Assembly: GCA_020846875.1 (NCBI GenBank)
Contig: JADLDB010000068.1
Coordinates: forward strand, 1 to 60,799
Reading direction: 5' to 3'
DNA from: Myxococcales bacterium
GTDB lineage: Bacteria > Myxococcota > Myxococcia > Myxococcales > Myxococcaceae
DNA: 60,799 bases
Numbering within the stretch: the first letter of the stretch is position 1; every line of letters starts with the position of its first letter. A program made the translations under genes and the position numbers. The notes below the pieces were generated by a model. That model made no database searches. It was not told where the DNA came from and was given only the letters and a program-made list of their open reading frames with translations. This document shows, piece after piece, positions 48,174-54,485 of the stretch.

Positions 48174-49360
48174 GTGGAGCCTCGCCGCCCCCGCCTGCCC
48201 CTCACCGTCCTCGCGCTGGGCGCCACCAGCTTCTTCAACGACGTAGCCAGCGAGATGGTGTTTCCCCTCTTGCCCGGCTTCCTCGCGCTGCTGGGGGCCG
48301 GGCCCACCTTCCTCGGGCTTTTGGAGGGCGTGGCCGACGCCGTGTCCGCGCTCCTCAAGTACCTCGCCGGCAAGCGCGCGGACAAGGGCGGCCAGAAGGG
48401 GCTGGTGCTGCTGGGCTACGGCTTCACCACCTTCGTGCGGCCGCTGCTGGCGGTGGTGGCGGCGCCCTGGCAGGTGCTGGCGATTCGCGCCGCCGACCGG
48501 ATGGGCAAGGGCGTGCGCAGCGCTCCCCGCGACGCGCTGCTGGCCGGCGCGGTGCCCGCCTTCGAGACGGGCCGGGCCTTCGGCTTCCACCGGGCGATGG
48601 ACCACACCGGCGCGGTGGTGGGCCGCTTGTGGCCACCGCGCTGCTCTTCTTCGGCGTCTCGGTGCGCACCGTCTTCGCCCTCACCCTCATCCCCGGGCTG
48701 TTGGTGGTGGCCTCCCTCTTTCTGGTGAAGGAGCCGCCCTTGGCTCCTCCCAAGGCGACGGACGGGGCGGGCCTGCGGGCGCCCATGCCGGCGAGGCTGC
48801 GGCAGTTGCTGGGGCTCTTCTTCTTCTTCGCCCTGGCCAACTCCTCCGACGCCTTCCTCCTCCTGCGCGCGCGCGAGGTGGGCACGAAGGAGACGTGGCT
48901 GCCGGTGCTGTGGCTGGCGCTGCACCTGTCCAAGGTGTGGTGGACGACGAAGGCCGGCGCGTGGAGCGACCGCATGCCGCGCCACCGGCTGGTGCTGGGA
49001 GGGTGGGCCGTGTACGCCGGCTGCTACGCACTCCTGGGGGTGGCCTCGCAGGCCTGGCAGGTGTGGGCGGTGGTGGCGGCCTACGGGGCCTTCGCGGGCC
49101 TCACCGAGCCGGTGGAGAAGGCGATGGTGAAGGACCTGGCGCCGCCGGAGGCGCGGGGGCGGGCCTTCGGGCTGTACCACGGGCTGCTGGGCGCGGCGGC
49201 CATTCCCGCGGGGCTCCTCACCGGCGCGCTGTGGCAGGCCTTCGGGGCGGCTGCGGCGCTCTTCACCGGTGCGGCCGTCGCGGCGCTGGCGTCGGCCGGC
49301 CTCTTCCTCTGGGCGCGCGCCGCTCCACCCGCCCGCCCCGGGCAGACGAGCCTCACCTGA
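48174..49360 (+). pseudogene. MFS transporter gene with frameshift
   Basis: GTG 48174 begins a major facilitator protein (SFFNDVASEMVFPLLPGFLA, RAADRMGKGVRSAPRDALLA, HRAMDHTGAVVG) which breaks at about 48621-48626. The sequence goes on without loss in the next frame as VATALLFFGVSVRTVFALTL and runs to 49360 (AFGLYHGLLGAAAIPAGLLT). GGCCGCTT stands where GGCCCGCTT would restore GPLVATALL, so a single C seems missing. Without it the product would be about 395 residues with 12 helices. Either a real inactivating mutation or an assembly error in a GC run. Confidence 0.8.
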
Positions 49361-49368
49361 AGCCTCAC

Positions 49369-49455
49369 CAGCGAAGCTGCCTCACGCAGGCCAGCACCTC
49401 GCTGTCGTAGTACCGGGACTGGTCGCAGAAGCGGATGACCTGGCAACCGCCACGT
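49369..49455 (-). pseudogene. C-terminal fragment of a small secreted protein (left half of split gene)
   Basis: A minus-strand frame reads CQVIRFCDQSRYYDSEVLAC then VRQLRW and a stop at 49369, with no start codon. The Cys spacing and length look like the end of a Cys-repeat secreted protein. It directly abuts the DUF4276 gene of the island. The fragment at 53938-54091, same strand, contains a similar unit (LALHRACQSAFRG) with signal peptide. The two are probably parts of one gene split by the island. Confidence 0.5.
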
Positions 49456-49478
49456 CTTCGCCTACTAGCACCGCGCGT

Positions 49479-50108
49479 TCACGCGTCTGGGTTGACGCGA
49501 AACTCCCGCAGCGCCCGAAGGCAGCGGTCGAGGCTCTCGCTGCGCTTGCGAGCGGCTGCGACGGTCCAAGGGCCAGCCGCAAACTGAATGATGGCGGACT
49601 CATAGCCGGGACCGAACTTCGCGGTGTGCCCCGGCCGCGGGACCAGCAGCGTGCGCAGGTGCCGATTCGCCCGTCGGTGCGAGGCCAGTTCGACGATGGT
49701 GTGCGAGGGCTTGAGCAGCGCGTCAGGTTCCGTCGGGACCGTGTCCTTCGGGCACCCCAGCCACCTCGAGAAGGCGCCGACATCAGCCAAGAGCCACGCT
49801 TCGATTTCATGCCGCGCAAGCCGAAAGCGGAACCGTGGGCCCCGATTGGGCAGCCCGAGCTTCTCGAGGACGCCGGCTCCGCATTGCTGAAATCGCGCCC
49901 CCTTCCGGTTGGGCGGCGTCGGGTCAACGTCTCGGAGCAACAGCGGCGCCTTCGTCGGCGGACTGGCCACGAGGCGCGCTGCGAAGCGGTCGACGGGGTC
50001 GTAGCCGCCGAGCGAGAACAGACCCGCCACGTGGAAACCGCACGCCTCCGCGACCTTTTTGGCGACCGGCTTGTCGGTGTCCCCTTCGCAGTAGACGTCG
50101 AGGTTCAT
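49479..50108 (-). CDS. DUF4276 family (TOPRIM-like) protein
   Basis: The 209-residue product starts with a strand and EGDTD (residues 9-13) and has LLLRDVDPTPP (about 57-67). HEIEAWLLADVGAFSRWLG (about 99-117) follows. That set of acidic motifs and the EAWLLAD phrase match DUF4276, a TOPRIM-type family. TOPRIM proteins cut nucleic acid. Its start overlaps the AAA ATPase stop by 4 bases, an arrangement like the ATPase/TOPRIM pairs of the PARIS and AbiL defence systems, though I cannot equate it to either. The gene itself looks complete. Confidence 0.8.
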   Translation of the reverse strand: MNLDVYCEGDTDKPVAKKVAEACGFHVAGLFSLGGYDPVDRFAARLVASPPTKAPLLLRDVDPTPPNRKGARFQQCGAGVLEKLGLPNRGPRFRFRLARHEIEAWLLADVGAFSRWLGCPKDTVPTEPDALLKPSHTIVELASHRRANRHLRTLLVPRPGHTAKFGPGYESAIIQFAAGPWTVAAARKRSESLDRCLRALREFRVNPDA

Positions 50109-51193
50109 CCACCCACTCCGGTCGCGAGCCCGTCGATGCCCTCCACGGCGGTGAGCTGCTCGAGCTGTCGGCCCAGTTCGAGCTCGTGCTCGACCGCGGC
50201 GACGATGGTCTCGTTGTCAGCGCCGTTCTCGACGACTGACGCCTCCGCCTTCTTTCCGTGTCCGGGCCGAACGAGGACGATCTCGCTGGGGTCGATGCCA
50301 CGCCCGTTGAACATCGCGAAGGCGTGACTGGTCACGATGACCTGCCGTGTCGCCGCGACCGTCGAGATCAACGCGGGCAACTGCCTGACCGCGCTGCCGT
50401 GCAATGACAGCTCTGGCTCCTCGAGCAACAGCGGCCCGTCGCCGTCGGCGATCTCCCACAACAGCCCTATCAACCGGAGTGTGCCGTCTGAGAGCAACCC
50501 CTCGTCCTGATACGCGTCCTCCGTGCGCCAGTGCTTCAGCCGCAACTGCAAGTGGGGGTGACCCAGCTCGTCTTTCTCGAGCGCGAGCTTCCGGAAGAAG
50601 GGCAGCACGTTCCTCAGCGCCTTGTTGATGCGCGTGAGGCGCTTATTTCGCGCTGCCTGCGGAGTCCTCGCGACGCGCTCAAGGAACCGAGGCCCATAGT
50701 CCTCAAGCTCCCGGTCGCCGTGCAATTTCGTCGTCCGGAGCAACTGCGGCACCAGGTGCGCGTAGCGGATGGTGCGGAGCGCACGCACCAACGCCTCGAA
50801 GTCCGCGTTGTGCGCCGATTGCTCGAGGTGGGTCTGGCGCCGCTCTTCGCCGCGCTCGTGCTTCGCGTCGCGCTCAAGCAAGACCTCGCCGTCCCGGCTG
50901 ACGCGCTCCTTGAGCACGACGGCTCGGTCACCGGGCCGCTCGCGCTCCAGCCACAGCACGTACGTCCACAACTGCGCCTCGAGCTGCACGTCGAGCTCGA
51001 GCTCGATGTGACTCCGTGGGCCGTGCTGGAAGAGAGTGCGGATCACGCTGAAGCCGGGGCGGCGACTCGACGCCGCAGACTGGAGCCCCCCCGCCTCGAC
51101 AGCGAGGTCGCGCACAAAGCGTAGCGCGTCGAGGAGGTTCGACTTTCCCGAGGCGTTCGGCCCGACGATGAAGGACCGCTGTTGGAGGCGCAC
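50105..51193 (-). CDS. AAA ATPase (OLD/SMC-like), 5'-truncated
   Basis: The open frame begins at a GTG (51193) only eight codons before Walker A (IVGPNASGKSNLLDALRFV). It continues with a helical insert, an ABC-type signature (LLSDGTLRLIGLLWEIADGD), Walker B (PLLLEEPELSLH) and the His switch (QVIVTSHAFAMF). Relatives have about 20 more residues forming the first strands. The missing part is replaced by an IS21 transposase remnant at about 51196. It may still be expressed, but its nucleotide domain is probably damaged. Coupled to the DUF4276 gene. Confidence 0.85.
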   Translation of the reverse strand: MRLQQRSFIVGPNASGKSNLLDALRFVRDLAVEAGGLQSAASSRRPGFSVIRTLFQHGPRSHIELELDVQLEAQLWTYVLWLERERPGDRAVVLKERVSRDGEVLLERDAKHERGEERRQTHLEQSAHNADFEALVRALRTIRYAHLVPQLLRTTKLHGDRELEDYGPRFLERVARTPQAARNKRLTRINKALRNVLPFFRKLALEKDELGHPHLQLRLKHWRTEDAYQDEGLLSDGTLRLIGLLWEIADGDGPLLLEEPELSLHGSAVRQLPALISTVAATRQVIVTSHAFAMFNGRGIDPSEIVLVRPGHGKKAEASVVENGADNETIVAAVEHELELGRQLEQLTAVEGIDGLATGVGG

Positions 51194-51195
51194 CT

Positions 51196-51509
51196 CCGAA
51201 CTGCTGGTAGATGGCCACCGCGTTCCGGCGTCGGCTCAGCGCCTCGGTGATCAGCTCGTGAAACGGGCTGCAGTGACTCTTCACCGGCGGCTCGTCGGGC
51301 AGCTCGGGGTCGGTGGTCACTTCGTTGGCCGGTTTTGCCGGGCGCCCCCACCTCCCGGGCTGGCGCACGTCGACCCCCGCCTCCTTCAGGTACGCGCTCG
51401 CCGTCTCGCGGCGCCCGCCTGTCTCGAATTGGATGCGCCGCAGCGACCAGCCGAGCCGGCCGAGGGCAGTGACCTGCTGTCGTTTCTCTTCGCTCAAGAC
51501 GTTCGCCAT
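51196..51509 (-). pseudogene. IS21-type transposase (istA) 5' fragment
   Basis: Translation from ATG 51509 gives MANVLSEEKRQQVTALGRLG, WSLRRIQFETGGRRETASAY and GRWGRPAKPANEVTTDPELP, the standard N-terminus of an IstA transposase. It runs to AIYQQF. At about 51196-51203 homology stops and the frame enters the AAA gene. Catalytic DDE domain and istB are absent, so this is a dead remnant. Confidence 0.85.
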
Positions 51510-51590
51510 GCCCTTGACGACTACGCGTCGCGGTCGGGCGTCAACGCCTCGGGCCTCAGCTCATTGGCCGATTTTGAAGTGACCACCTGC
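51196..51590. mobile_element. One-ended IS21-family remnant
   Basis: It joins the istA fragment to a probable outer end at about 51560-51590. There GGCCGATTTTGAAGTGACC resembles the repeated terminal motif of IS21-like elements (CACTTCAAAATCGGCC on the other strand). The rest of the element and the first codons of the AAA gene are missing, so a deletion has removed them together. The precise terminus cannot be set from one end. Confidence 0.65.
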
Positions 51591-51619
51591 TTGCGATCCT
51601 CCGATACTGCGCGCATAAT
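51591..51619 (+). promoter_or_regulatory. Predicted sigma-70 promoter of the abiE operon
   Basis: TTGCGA at 51591-51596 and CATAAT at 51614-51619 are spaced by 17 bases, close to consensus. Transcription would begin at about 51626, giving a leaderless or nearly leaderless mRNA starting at TTG 51625 or GTG 51631. The -35 borders the IS21 end, so the insertion may have shaped this promoter. Confidence 0.55.
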
Positions 51620-51624
51620 GCCCT

Positions 51625-52473
51625 TTGAACGTGGGCACTCCGCACGTAGACCGTGAGCCGACCAAGACCCTCGGCCCTCAAGCCGCTCGGCTCGTCGCAA
51701 TCCTGCACGAGCGGGGCCGGACGTTGTTCACCCACGCAGACGTCAAGAAGATCGCGGGCCTGTCCGCGAAGTCCGCGCGCAACCTCGTCGCCGGTCTCGT
51801 GAACCGCGGCCTCGCCACCCGTCTCAAGCCAGGCCTGTTCATCCTCGTGCCCTTTGAGCTCGGGCGCGAGCGCGAGTACCTCGGCAATCCCTACGTGGTC
51901 GCGCGCGAGCTCGCCGACACGCCCGAGTACTACGTGTCGCACGCCTCCGCGATGGACCTGCACCAGATGGTCACGCAGCCGCAACTCGCGGTCTTCGTGA
52001 TGTCGCCGAAGGCAATCAGGCCGCGCATGGTGCTCGGCACGGAGTTCCGGTTCGTGCGCTGCAAGCGGGAGAACCTGTTTGGCATCGTCGAAGTGTGGGC
52101 GACGAAGACCGAGCGCGTTCACGTCAGCGACCTCGAGCGCACCGTCATCGACGGCCTCAAGCAGCCGGAGCACTGCGGCGGCCTGACCGAGGTCGCGAAG
52201 GGGTTCTGGATGCGCCGGGATGCGATCGCCGTGCCGAAGCTCGTCGACTACGCCCTGCGACTCGGCGTCGGTGCGGTCGTACGCCGGCTCGGCTTCTTGC
52301 TGGAGACGTTCGAGATCGACGCACCCGCCGAGATCGAGCGGCTGCGCGCAGCGCTGACTGCCACGTACGCGCCCCTCGATCCGCTCATGCCCGCGGAGGG
52401 GCCGTGGCACGCGCGGTGGCGGGTTCGCGTCAACGTCGAGCCCGACGAGCTGCGAGCGCTCGTGAGGACCTGA
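51625..52473 (+). CDS. AbiEi family antitoxin
   Basis: The 282-residue protein has an N-terminal winged helix (ERGRTLFTHADVKKIAGLSA, RNLVAGLVNRGLATRLKPGL, FILVPFE) and a larger C-terminal domain with PEYYVSHASAMDLHQMVTQP and VSDLERTVIDGLKQPEHCGG. This is the plan of AbiEi, the antitoxin of type IV systems, which also represses its own promoter. No ribosome-binding site is present; TTG 51625 or GTG 51631 would start it. The stop is 3 bases from the toxin start. Confidence 0.9.
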   Translation: MNVGTPHVDREPTKTLGPQAARLVAILHERGRTLFTHADVKKIAGLSAKSARNLVAGLVNRGLATRLKPGLFILVPFELGREREYLGNPYVVARELADTPEYYVSHASAMDLHQMVTQPQLAVFVMSPKAIRPRMVLGTEFRFVRCKRENLFGIVEVWATKTERVHVSDLERTVIDGLKQPEHCGGLTEVAKGFWMRRDAIAVPKLVDYALRLGVGAVVRRLGFLLETFEIDAPAEIERLRAALTATYAPLDPLMPAEGPWHARWRVRVNVEPDELRALVRT

Positions 52474-52476
52474 CCG

Positions 52477-53319
52477 ATGATTCCGCAACGAAACCTGTCC
52501 CTGCTCTCGAACCGCCTTGCCCGCGCTGGTGGCCGCCGCGTGGTCGAGGCGGTCCTCGAGCGCGACTACTGCCTCGCCTGGTTCCTCGTGGGCCTGTCGC
52601 GCTCGCCTCTTCGCGAGGCGCTCGTGTTCAAGGGCGGCACGGCGCTCAAGCGCTGCTACTTCGGCGACTACCGCTTCTCGGAGGACCTCGACTTCACGCT
52701 CGCCGAGCCCCGCGAGCTCGCTGCGATCCTTGCTGGGCTCGAGGAGGTGTACGCGGAGGTCCAGCGGGCGTCGGGCATCGTGGTGCGCTTCGCCCGCGCC
52801 GATCGCAAGAGCCACCAGAACAGCCACACCTTCTACCTCTCCTACGAGGGGCCGCTCCCGGCGGCGTCGCCGAAGGAGGTCAAGGTCGACATCACGATCC
52901 GCGAGCAGCTCGTGCGCCCCGTCGAAGAGCGGCCGGTGTTGCGCGGGTACGAGGAATACGCGGACCTGCCCGAGGACGCGCCGGTGCGCGTGTACGCGCT
53001 CGACGAGATCGCGATCGAGAAGCTCGTCGCCCTGACCGACAAGGCCCGCAACGAACCTCGCGACCTGTACGACCTGTGGCACCTCACGAGCGCGGGGCTC
53101 ATCGACTTCTCGACGCTGATCCCCGAGGTCGAGGCGAAGCTCGCCTTCCGCGGTCGCACGCGCGACGCGATGACCGCCGAACTCGCGACGAAGGAGGCGC
53201 GCTACAAGAAGCTCTGGGCGGTCCGCCTCGGGCAGCAGATGGCGACGCTTCCGCCGTTCGACGATGTCTTCCGAGCGGTGCGACGAAGCCTGCGCGACGC
53301 CGGGCTTGTGGAGCGGTGA
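52477..53319 (+). CDS. AbiEii family nucleotidyltransferase toxin
   Basis: The 280-residue enzyme contains VFKGGTALKRCYFGDYRFSE (residues 50-69) followed by DLDF at 70-73, which holds the metal-binding acids, then KVDITIREQLV. A late helical part follows with ALDEIAIEKLVALTDKARNE and PRDLYDLWHL. AbiEii toxins transfer nucleotides to tRNA and halt translation. All catalytic motifs are intact and the gene follows abiEi by 3 bases. Abortive-infection action against phage is the expected role. Confidence 0.92.
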   Translation: MIPQRNLSLLSNRLARAGGRRVVEAVLERDYCLAWFLVGLSRSPLREALVFKGGTALKRCYFGDYRFSEDLDFTLAEPRELAAILAGLEEVYAEVQRASGIVVRFARADRKSHQNSHTFYLSYEGPLPAASPKEVKVDITIREQLVRPVEERPVLRGYEEYADLPEDAPVRVYALDEIAIEKLVALTDKARNEPRDLYDLWHLTSAGLIDFSTLIPEVEAKLAFRGRTRDAMTAELATKEARYKKLWAVRLGQQMATLPPFDDVFRAVRRSLRDAGLVER

Positions 53320-53337
53320 GGCGCGAGCGGGAGGCGG

Positions 53338-53772
53338 TCAGGGCCGAAGGAAGCGGTTCGCGTCGGACGTTGCGCGGGTGCGCACTCGAGCGACGGCGGT
53401 CGGCACGGGCTCCGATGCGTGCATCTTCAAGTCCTGGATGTCGCTCAGTTGCCGGGCGAGCTCGGCCTGCACGAGCGGATGAGCGAGGACTCGGAGCTCG
53501 GCCCCGCGCACGTTCCTGTCGATGTCCTCGCTATTGATCACGAAGTTGTCCAAGGCCTCATAGGCAACGCGGGCCGCCCATGCTGCTTCCTGAGGGTCCC
53601 CAAGAAGCTTCGTGCGCAGGGCGTAGATCGCCGCCATGCCGGCATTCTGCGCGTTGGTGGCGTCCTGAGTCCAAGGGCCGTTGATGCTGTCCTCTTGCGG
53701 TACCAGGCTCATCAGAGTCTCGATCTGCTCCTCCTTCGCGCGCAGCCCATCACGCCTCGGCTCGGCCTTCAT
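53338..53772 (-). CDS. DUF416-like protein, N-terminally short
   Basis: Residues 15-95 match the C-terminal half of DUF416 proteins: IETLMSLVPQEDSINGPWTQ, DATNAQNAGMAAIYALRTKL and AARVAYEALDNFVI. The family is usually about 190 residues, so the first 60-80 are missing; here the frame begins shortly after the ileS fragment. A basic tail follows. It may be a surviving domain or a pseudogene. Function of DUF416 is unknown. Confidence 0.55.
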   Translation of the reverse strand: MKAEPRRDGLRAKEEQIETLMSLVPQEDSINGPWTQDATNAQNAGMAAIYALRTKLLGDPQEAAWAARVAYEALDNFVINSEDIDRNVRGAELRVLAHPLVQAELARQLSDIQDLKMHASEPVPTAVARVRTRATSDANRFLRP

Positions 53773-53817
53773 CCCGCCATCGCTGATCGGTCACTTCGTG
53801 CGCGCAGCGCCAGAGGC

Positions 53818-53940
53818 TCAGCTGACCGCCTCAGTGCAGCGGTGGCAGAGCTCCTGGCCGCCCACCTCGGGCCGGTTCAACGAGCAGCGCGGGCACTTCG
53901 TGCCGGAGGCCTGCTCGACCAGCACCTTCACCTCGGAACG
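53818..53940 (-). pseudogene. Orphan 3' tail of isoleucyl-tRNA synthetase
   Basis: The minus-strand frame SEVKVLVEQASGTKCPRC...GGQELCHRCTEAVS has the C-terminal zinc finger of IleS (two CxxC pairs), then TGA at 53818. No other part of ileS is present and the usual Trp after the first pair is Ser. The fragment ends abruptly inside a small secreted-protein gene, at about 53938. Confidence 0.75.
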
Positions 53941-54091
53941 CGCTCTGGCAGGCGCGGTGGAGCGCGAGGAAGTCCGGCCTCACGCGCTGCGGCTCGCCCC
54001 AGCGTTCCTCGAGGCGGCCCCGGCCGTGGCGGTGCTGGGCGAAGGCGAGGGAAGAGGAGAGCAACAGGGCGACGACGAGGAGGTGGCGCAT
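53831..54091 (-). pseudogene. Small secreted protein, N-terminal half of split gene
   Basis: ATG 54091 gives a good signal peptide (MRHLLVVALLLSSSLAFAQ), then HRHGRGRLEERWGEPQRVRP and a Cys unit LALHRACQSAFRG. Beyond about 53938 the frame reads the ileS tail out of phase until a stop at 53831. The proper continuation may be the fragment at 49369-49455. No clear ribosome-binding site is visible. Confidence 0.6.
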
Positions 54092-54155: not shown

Positions 54156-54485
54156 CTACTTGCAGGAGTTGGCGCAGGAGGCCGGCTCGCCCATGACGGC
54201 CTGCTCGCAGGTCTGCGCCTTGCGGTCGGTGATGCAGGAGGAGGCCGCGGCGGCGTCGAACGTCTTCCCGTCGGCGCAGCCGCTGACCAGCGCGCACAGG
54301 GACTTGTACTGCGACTTGCAGGAGCCGAGGTCGCTGCCAATCTTGAGGCCCGAGGCCCCGGGGCAGTTCCACATCTTCTCGCACTCGCCGTCGACGCGCT
54401 GCTCGCAGAAGCCCTGCGGGGAGAGGCCACAGCCGGCGAGGGCGAGGAGGGCGACGGACAGCGCTGCGAGGACGAGCTTCTTCAT
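54156..54485 (-). CDS. Cysteine-rich lipoprotein
   Basis: ATG 54485 (GGAG about 10 bases ahead) opens a signal with lipobox (LSVALLALAGCGLS). The 109-residue product has ten cysteines, in pairs such as CEQRVDGECEKMWNC and LCALVSGC, ending CANSCK. It is likely a disulphide-knotted domain at the cell surface. Similar small Cys-rich lipoproteins are common in myxobacteria; function unknown. Confidence 0.8.
   Translation of the reverse strand: MKKLVLAALSVALLALAGCGLSPQGFCEQRVDGECEKMWNCPGASGLKIGSDLGSCKSQYKSLCALVSGCADGKTFDAAAASSCITDRKAQTCEQAVMGEPASCANSCK

Follow-up and report, generated by a model that had tools for sequence, protein, structure and literature searches.

A probable patchwork of accessory DNA between the two ends of a secreted Cys-repeat protein gene in a myxobacterial draft genome

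How do defence-type genes come to lie between what look like the two ends of a small secreted-protein gene, and did one element enter that gene or was the DNA brought together from several sources? The question is raised by contig JADLDB010000068.1 of Myxococcales bacterium (family Myxococcaceae, assembly GCA_020846875.1), whose 60,799 nucleotides are the window analysed here. A first-pass annotation had proposed that about 4.5 kb of accessory DNA entered one gene and had joined the two halves by strand, order and similar Cys units. The features on which the present analysis draws are collected in Table 1.

Table 1. Positions of the insert, its flanks and loci of the secreted Cys-repeat family
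Feature	Position	Strand	Support
MFS transporter gene, left flank, converging on the secreted-protein gene	48174-49360	+	homologues in G016 and G013
Secreted Cys-repeat protein gene, 3' part: terminal repeat CQVIRFCDQSRYYDSEVLACVRQLRW and stop	49365-49448	-	last repeat of three intact homologues
DUF4276 gene, HEC-01B type, full length by profile	49479-50108	-	PADLOC HEC-01B, E 1e-35
AAA ATPase gene, HEC-01A type	50105-51193	-	PADLOC HEC-01A, E 4e-101
IS21 istA remnant and upstream end of the element	51205-51584	-	ORF start 51509
Promoter-like site TTGCGA-17-CATAAT	51591-51619	+	consensus match only
abiEi, antitoxin/regulator, full length	51631-52473	+	PADLOC AbiEi, E 5e-79
abiEii, nucleotidyltransferase toxin, full length	52477-53319	+	Pfam AbiEii, E 1.2e-40; PADLOC, E 2e-78
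DUF416-like gene, N-terminally truncated	53338-53733	-	Pfam DUF416, E 0.015
IS66-type element end, 62-63 bp	53733-53795	-	copies in own genome
ileS 3' tail, zinc-ribbon end, stop 53820-53818	53815-53937	-	84% DNA identity to own ileS
Secreted Cys-repeat protein gene, 5' part	53936-54091	-	residues 3-56 of G089 homologue
Cys-rich lipoprotein gene, right flank	54156-54485	-	lipobox LALAGC; weak homologues in the family
Secreted Cys-repeat family locus L095	6001-6687
Secreted Cys-repeat family locus L096	5899-6471
Secreted Cys-repeat family locus L097	5833-6624

Two ends of a secreted Cys-repeat protein gene

The 5' fragment starts at 54091 on the minus strand and encodes 52 aa, from a signal peptide to ...LHRACQSAF; the loss of sense that had been placed near 53938 is borne out by the homology of the fragment, which ends at about 53937, where the ileS-like sequence begins. 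The orphan end on the left is likewise present on the minus strand and reads CQVIRFCDQSRYYDSEVLACVRQLRW, but its stop codon occupies 49367-49365, a few bases to the left of the 49369 first assigned. At the corresponding place in relatives neither fragment has a clear homologue. Intact homologues were reached through a chain in which the 3' fragment led to a gene in G005, itself a MAG, and this gene to one in an Archangium MAG (G089); they measure 191 aa in G005, 229 aa in G089 and 264 aa in a public MAG (L097), and the G005 and G089 proteins consist of a signal peptide followed by 4-6 repeats of the type CDxAMYYDSDxxxC. In local alignments (BLOSUM62) with the G089 protein, the 5' fragment matched residues 3-56 with a score of 66 and the 3' fragment residues 204-224 with a score of 72, and neither score was reached in any of 1000 shuffles. 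Without its signal peptide the 5' fragment retained the match to G089 (0 of 1000 shuffles as good) and had a weak similarity to G005 (128 of 1000 shuffles as good); the case for its membership in the family rests on the sequence of G089. The 3' fragment aligned with the last repeat of all three intact homologues and ended within two residues of their ends.

The 5' fragment therefore fits the N-terminus of the family and the 3' fragment its C-terminal repeat, CD(Q/G)xRxYDS, while the internal repeats are absent and the gene is interrupted. Sequence comparison assigns the fragments to opposite ends of a single gene family, in correct order and strand, and the earlier view that the halves belong together is strengthened, as both match one intact protein, at its N-terminus and its last repeat, and not different families. 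Judged against its homologues, the gene has lost about 110-150 aa or more of its middle (some 120-150 aa relative to G089 and G005, and more relative to L097), and the event was thus a replacement and not a clean insertion. The broken gene yields no more than a truncated protein of 86 residues. Alternatively, the fragments might be what is left of two paralogues of this family, in tandem or apart in the genome, that were each truncated independently on either side of the insert, which would equally have removed the middle, and the internal repeats of the family do resemble one another. We regard this as unlikely: no further family member turned up in a paralogue search of the genome itself, the intact loci read from relatives each hold a single gene, and the 3' half shows the hallmarks of the last repeat while the 5' half has the N-terminus.

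A profile built from two sequences found family members in 5 of 147 genomes from this class, and the family had no match in Pfam at its cut-off. Longer relatives with repeats of the type CExAMEGDxxELEC occur in three genomes (G021, G115 and G128). The model predicted for the G089 protein is a row of helical hairpins (mean pLDDT 88, pTM 0.77), and a solenoid of helical-hairpin repeats is thus the predicted fold of the family. A sequence search of the PDB with the family found nothing, and Foldseek against the PDB gave no match at E 0.001; a fold relationship was considered as well, but the candidates, with Z values of at most 9.3, were mostly designed helical repeat proteins, which in the case of repeats is no evidence of relationship. 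The repeats may be disulphide-linked and the protein periplasmic or extracellular.

Flanks and pieces of the insert

For the original, empty state of the locus we searched relatives with both flanks, and among 40-60 of them no uninterrupted secreted-protein gene was found at the syntenic locus between the MFS transporter and lipoprotein genes, the place at which the first-pass annotation had proposed to look for one. G016 retains the left flank (lipoprotein, DUF and MFS genes), which is not followed there by a secreted-protein gene, nor was one seen beside the MFS gene in the regions read from the nearest relatives that possess it, and the relatives searched included no second genome of the genus. 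As none of the relatives searched has the gene uninterrupted at this locus, we infer the empty site. The MFS gene of the window has a frameshift near 48624 that its homologues in G016 and G013, each open in a single frame, do not share; it is either an error of the draft sequence or a sign that another gene next to the insert is broken too.

The insert spans 4.48 kb between the two fragments and consists, from right to left, of the ileS tail, the IS66 end, the DUF416-like gene, the abiEii/abiEi pair, the IS21 istA remnant, the AAA gene and the DUF4276 gene. All parts named at first reading were recovered, DUF4276, AAA, AbiEi, AbiEii and, weakly, DUF416 by Pfam and/or PADLOC matches, and the IS21 remnant through the istA genes of relatives. 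The GC content of the insert is 0.678, compared with a mean of 0.721 (sd 0.015) in 237 windows of the same size outside it, none of which was as low, and GC3 is 0.81-0.91, compared with 0.95-0.97 in four flank genes. Since both values are lower than in the flanks, the insert is, judged by its composition, foreign or at least different DNA. None of 145 genomes of the order carries it as one unit, and in a plasmid search with the island DNA the matches were limited to AbiE on sphingomonad plasmids (65-66% identity) and tiny ones in Rhizobium.

The ileS tail directly abuts the last codon of the 5' part of the secreted-protein gene. Over 122 bp it shares 84% identity with the ileS gene of the same genome (on contig C107), compared with 75-79% for ileS of other genera, and it differs from the own gene at 4, 6 and 10 first, second and third codon positions, respectively, with loss of the conserved tryptophan of CPRCW. 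The own ileS is intact and has no insert directly downstream. Copies of the IS66 end occur in the same genome beside IS66 transposase coding sequence, 97-98% identical on contigs C76, C45 and C200 and 90% identical on C67; on C200 the copy is fused to a truncated IS66 transposase. The weak Pfam match of the DUF416-like gene begins at profile position 66, and homologues in G102 and G069 have about 70 additional N-terminal residues. The IS21 remnant comprises the first 101 aa of istA and is 57-61% identical to the istA of relatives at the protein level and 72-78% at the DNA level.

The two defence-type gene pairs

HEC-01 is defined by an AAA ATPase and a DUF4276 protein, both of full length, and the ATPase encoded here lacks the N-terminal strand. 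Its match to the PADLOC HEC-01A profile begins at position 20, leaving about 19 N-terminal residues missing, and six AAA homologues start with MRITRLRLENWRNF... ahead of the shared sequence. The DUF4276 protein covers positions 6-198 of the 204 of the HEC-01B profile and stays under the cut-off of Pfam DUF4276. A contig search with this protein found no relative, and among the papers searched none mentioned DUF4276, nor HEC-01 together with PADLOC. As the ATPase has lost its first strand, the pair is probably impaired.

In studied AbiE systems, AbiEi acts both as repressor of the operon and as antitoxin to AbiEii, a nucleotidyltransferase with a bacteriostatic effect and the motif hG[G/S]x15DhD (PMC3985639). 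The two genes in the insert are adjacent on one strand with 3 nt between them, as in an operon, and the start codon of abiEi, a GTG, was set by comparison with G073. AbiEi matches its PADLOC profile over the full length and shows Pfam AbiEi_4 followed by AbiEi_1, in the correct order and slightly under the cut-offs, that is, a winged-helix N-terminus and a C-terminal antitoxin domain. The translation of AbiEii reads KGG-TALKRCYFGDYRFSE-DLD, or GG-x15-DLD. The promoter-like site lies 12 bp upstream of the GTG and is the sole such site in 2 kb (mean in shuffles, 0.0). A block from 51631 to 53335, from the start codon of abiEi to 16 bp past abiEii, is 88% identical over 1705 bp to contig C108 of G073, which belongs to a different family; its identity to G083 is 72%. 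In G073 (L098, 3327-8000) the donor-like AbiE pair has, within a few hundred bases, a very large ORF of the SNF2-type helicase kind on the opposite strand.

From its sequence, this is the only pair of the insert that looks complete and has a promoter-like site of its own; with these properties and the GG-x15-DLD motif, as found in studied AbiEii, it is likely to be the working part of the insert. By analogy, abiEi and abiEii most likely act as a type IV toxin-antitoxin system in abortive phage defence, in which AbiEi would repress its own operon and neutralise AbiEii, while unchecked AbiEii, as a nucleotidyltransferase, would stop growth.

Origin of the insert and comparison with known systems

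It is very probable that the secreted-protein gene lost its middle and that the place was taken by a patchwork of about 4.48 kb from several sources, not by one self-moving element. This reading brings together what the locus displays: the halves of one family, the missing middle, the truncated pieces, the lower GC content and an AbiE block in common with another family. The proposal of 4.5 kb entering one gene thus holds in so far as the GC content differs and a part is common with another family, but not as a simple entry, since the middle was lost and the truncated pieces have several sources. In this account the gene, which codes for a secreted, Cys-rich protein of predicted helical repeats, lost its middle, and the foreign and second-hand DNA now found there would have been built up as transposons inserted, stretches were deleted and ends were joined without homology. 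The borders of the insert showed no terminal repeat beyond chance and no target duplication; two 8-mers in inverted orientation were seen, not placed at the borders as a duplication. Since neither terminal repeats nor a target duplication was seen, we infer that the joining occurred by illegitimate recombination, and the order of events is proposed in the same way.

An assembly artefact, in which contigs of other organisms were joined in the draft, appears highly unlikely. The genome is a draft of 200 contigs, its nearest named relatives are MAGs, and an assembler could be misled by repeats such as the ileS tail and the IS66 end, but several independent false joins within 4.5 kb would be required, each internal junction lies inside a gene, as in biological truncation, the estimated contamination of the genome is 0.55%, and the repeats of 62 and 122 bp are short and have diverged from their copies. 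Integrative elements that target the 3' ends of genes carry such gene tails, and the ileS tail, a gene 3' end exactly at one border, might be the trace of an attachment site of an element with its own recombinase whose ends have decayed. This is most improbable, however, as the ORFs of the region include no integrase or recombinase gene, the other border has no matching repeat, the own ileS is undisturbed, and order and strand are unlike the layout of a tail next to an integrase; the recombinase and the terminal repeats or target duplication of an integrative mobile element or genomic island with defined ends were thus not found. That defence-gene DNA enters genes of the Cys-repeat family by preference, with internal DNA repeats aiding the deletion of the middle and the capture of fragments, is hardly credible.

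Replacement of the middle by a patchwork is an ordinary process of genome decay and gene uptake, clearly displayed here, and leaves the general understanding unchanged. The locus provides a base-level record of a defence pair held by untidy joins, outside any integrase island and at the cost of a secreted-protein gene, and it points to a family of secreted Cys-rich helical-repeat proteins in myxobacteria that has no Pfam match at its cut-off.

Like accessory-gene and defence islands with IS remnants, the insert combines lower GC content, defence genes, broken transposons and a patchy distribution; unlike these, it lies inside one broken gene, is very small and has no tRNA or integrase. Both fragments belong to the secreted Cys-repeat proteins of myxobacteria with the consensus CDxAMYYDSDxxxC, from which this copy differs in the loss of its middle repeats and the interruption of the gene. 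The AAA-DUF4276 pair agrees with HEC-01 of PADLOC-DB, itself a candidate system, in gene order and in both profile matches, but about 19 N-terminal residues of the ATPase are replaced by IS21 sequence. The AbiE pair resembles the studied type IV toxin-antitoxin systems (PMC3985639) in its adjacent genes on the same strand, the promoter-like site directly upstream and the GG-x15-DhD motif of AbiEii, whereas this pair, known from sequence, sits in a truncated patchwork between IS remnants.
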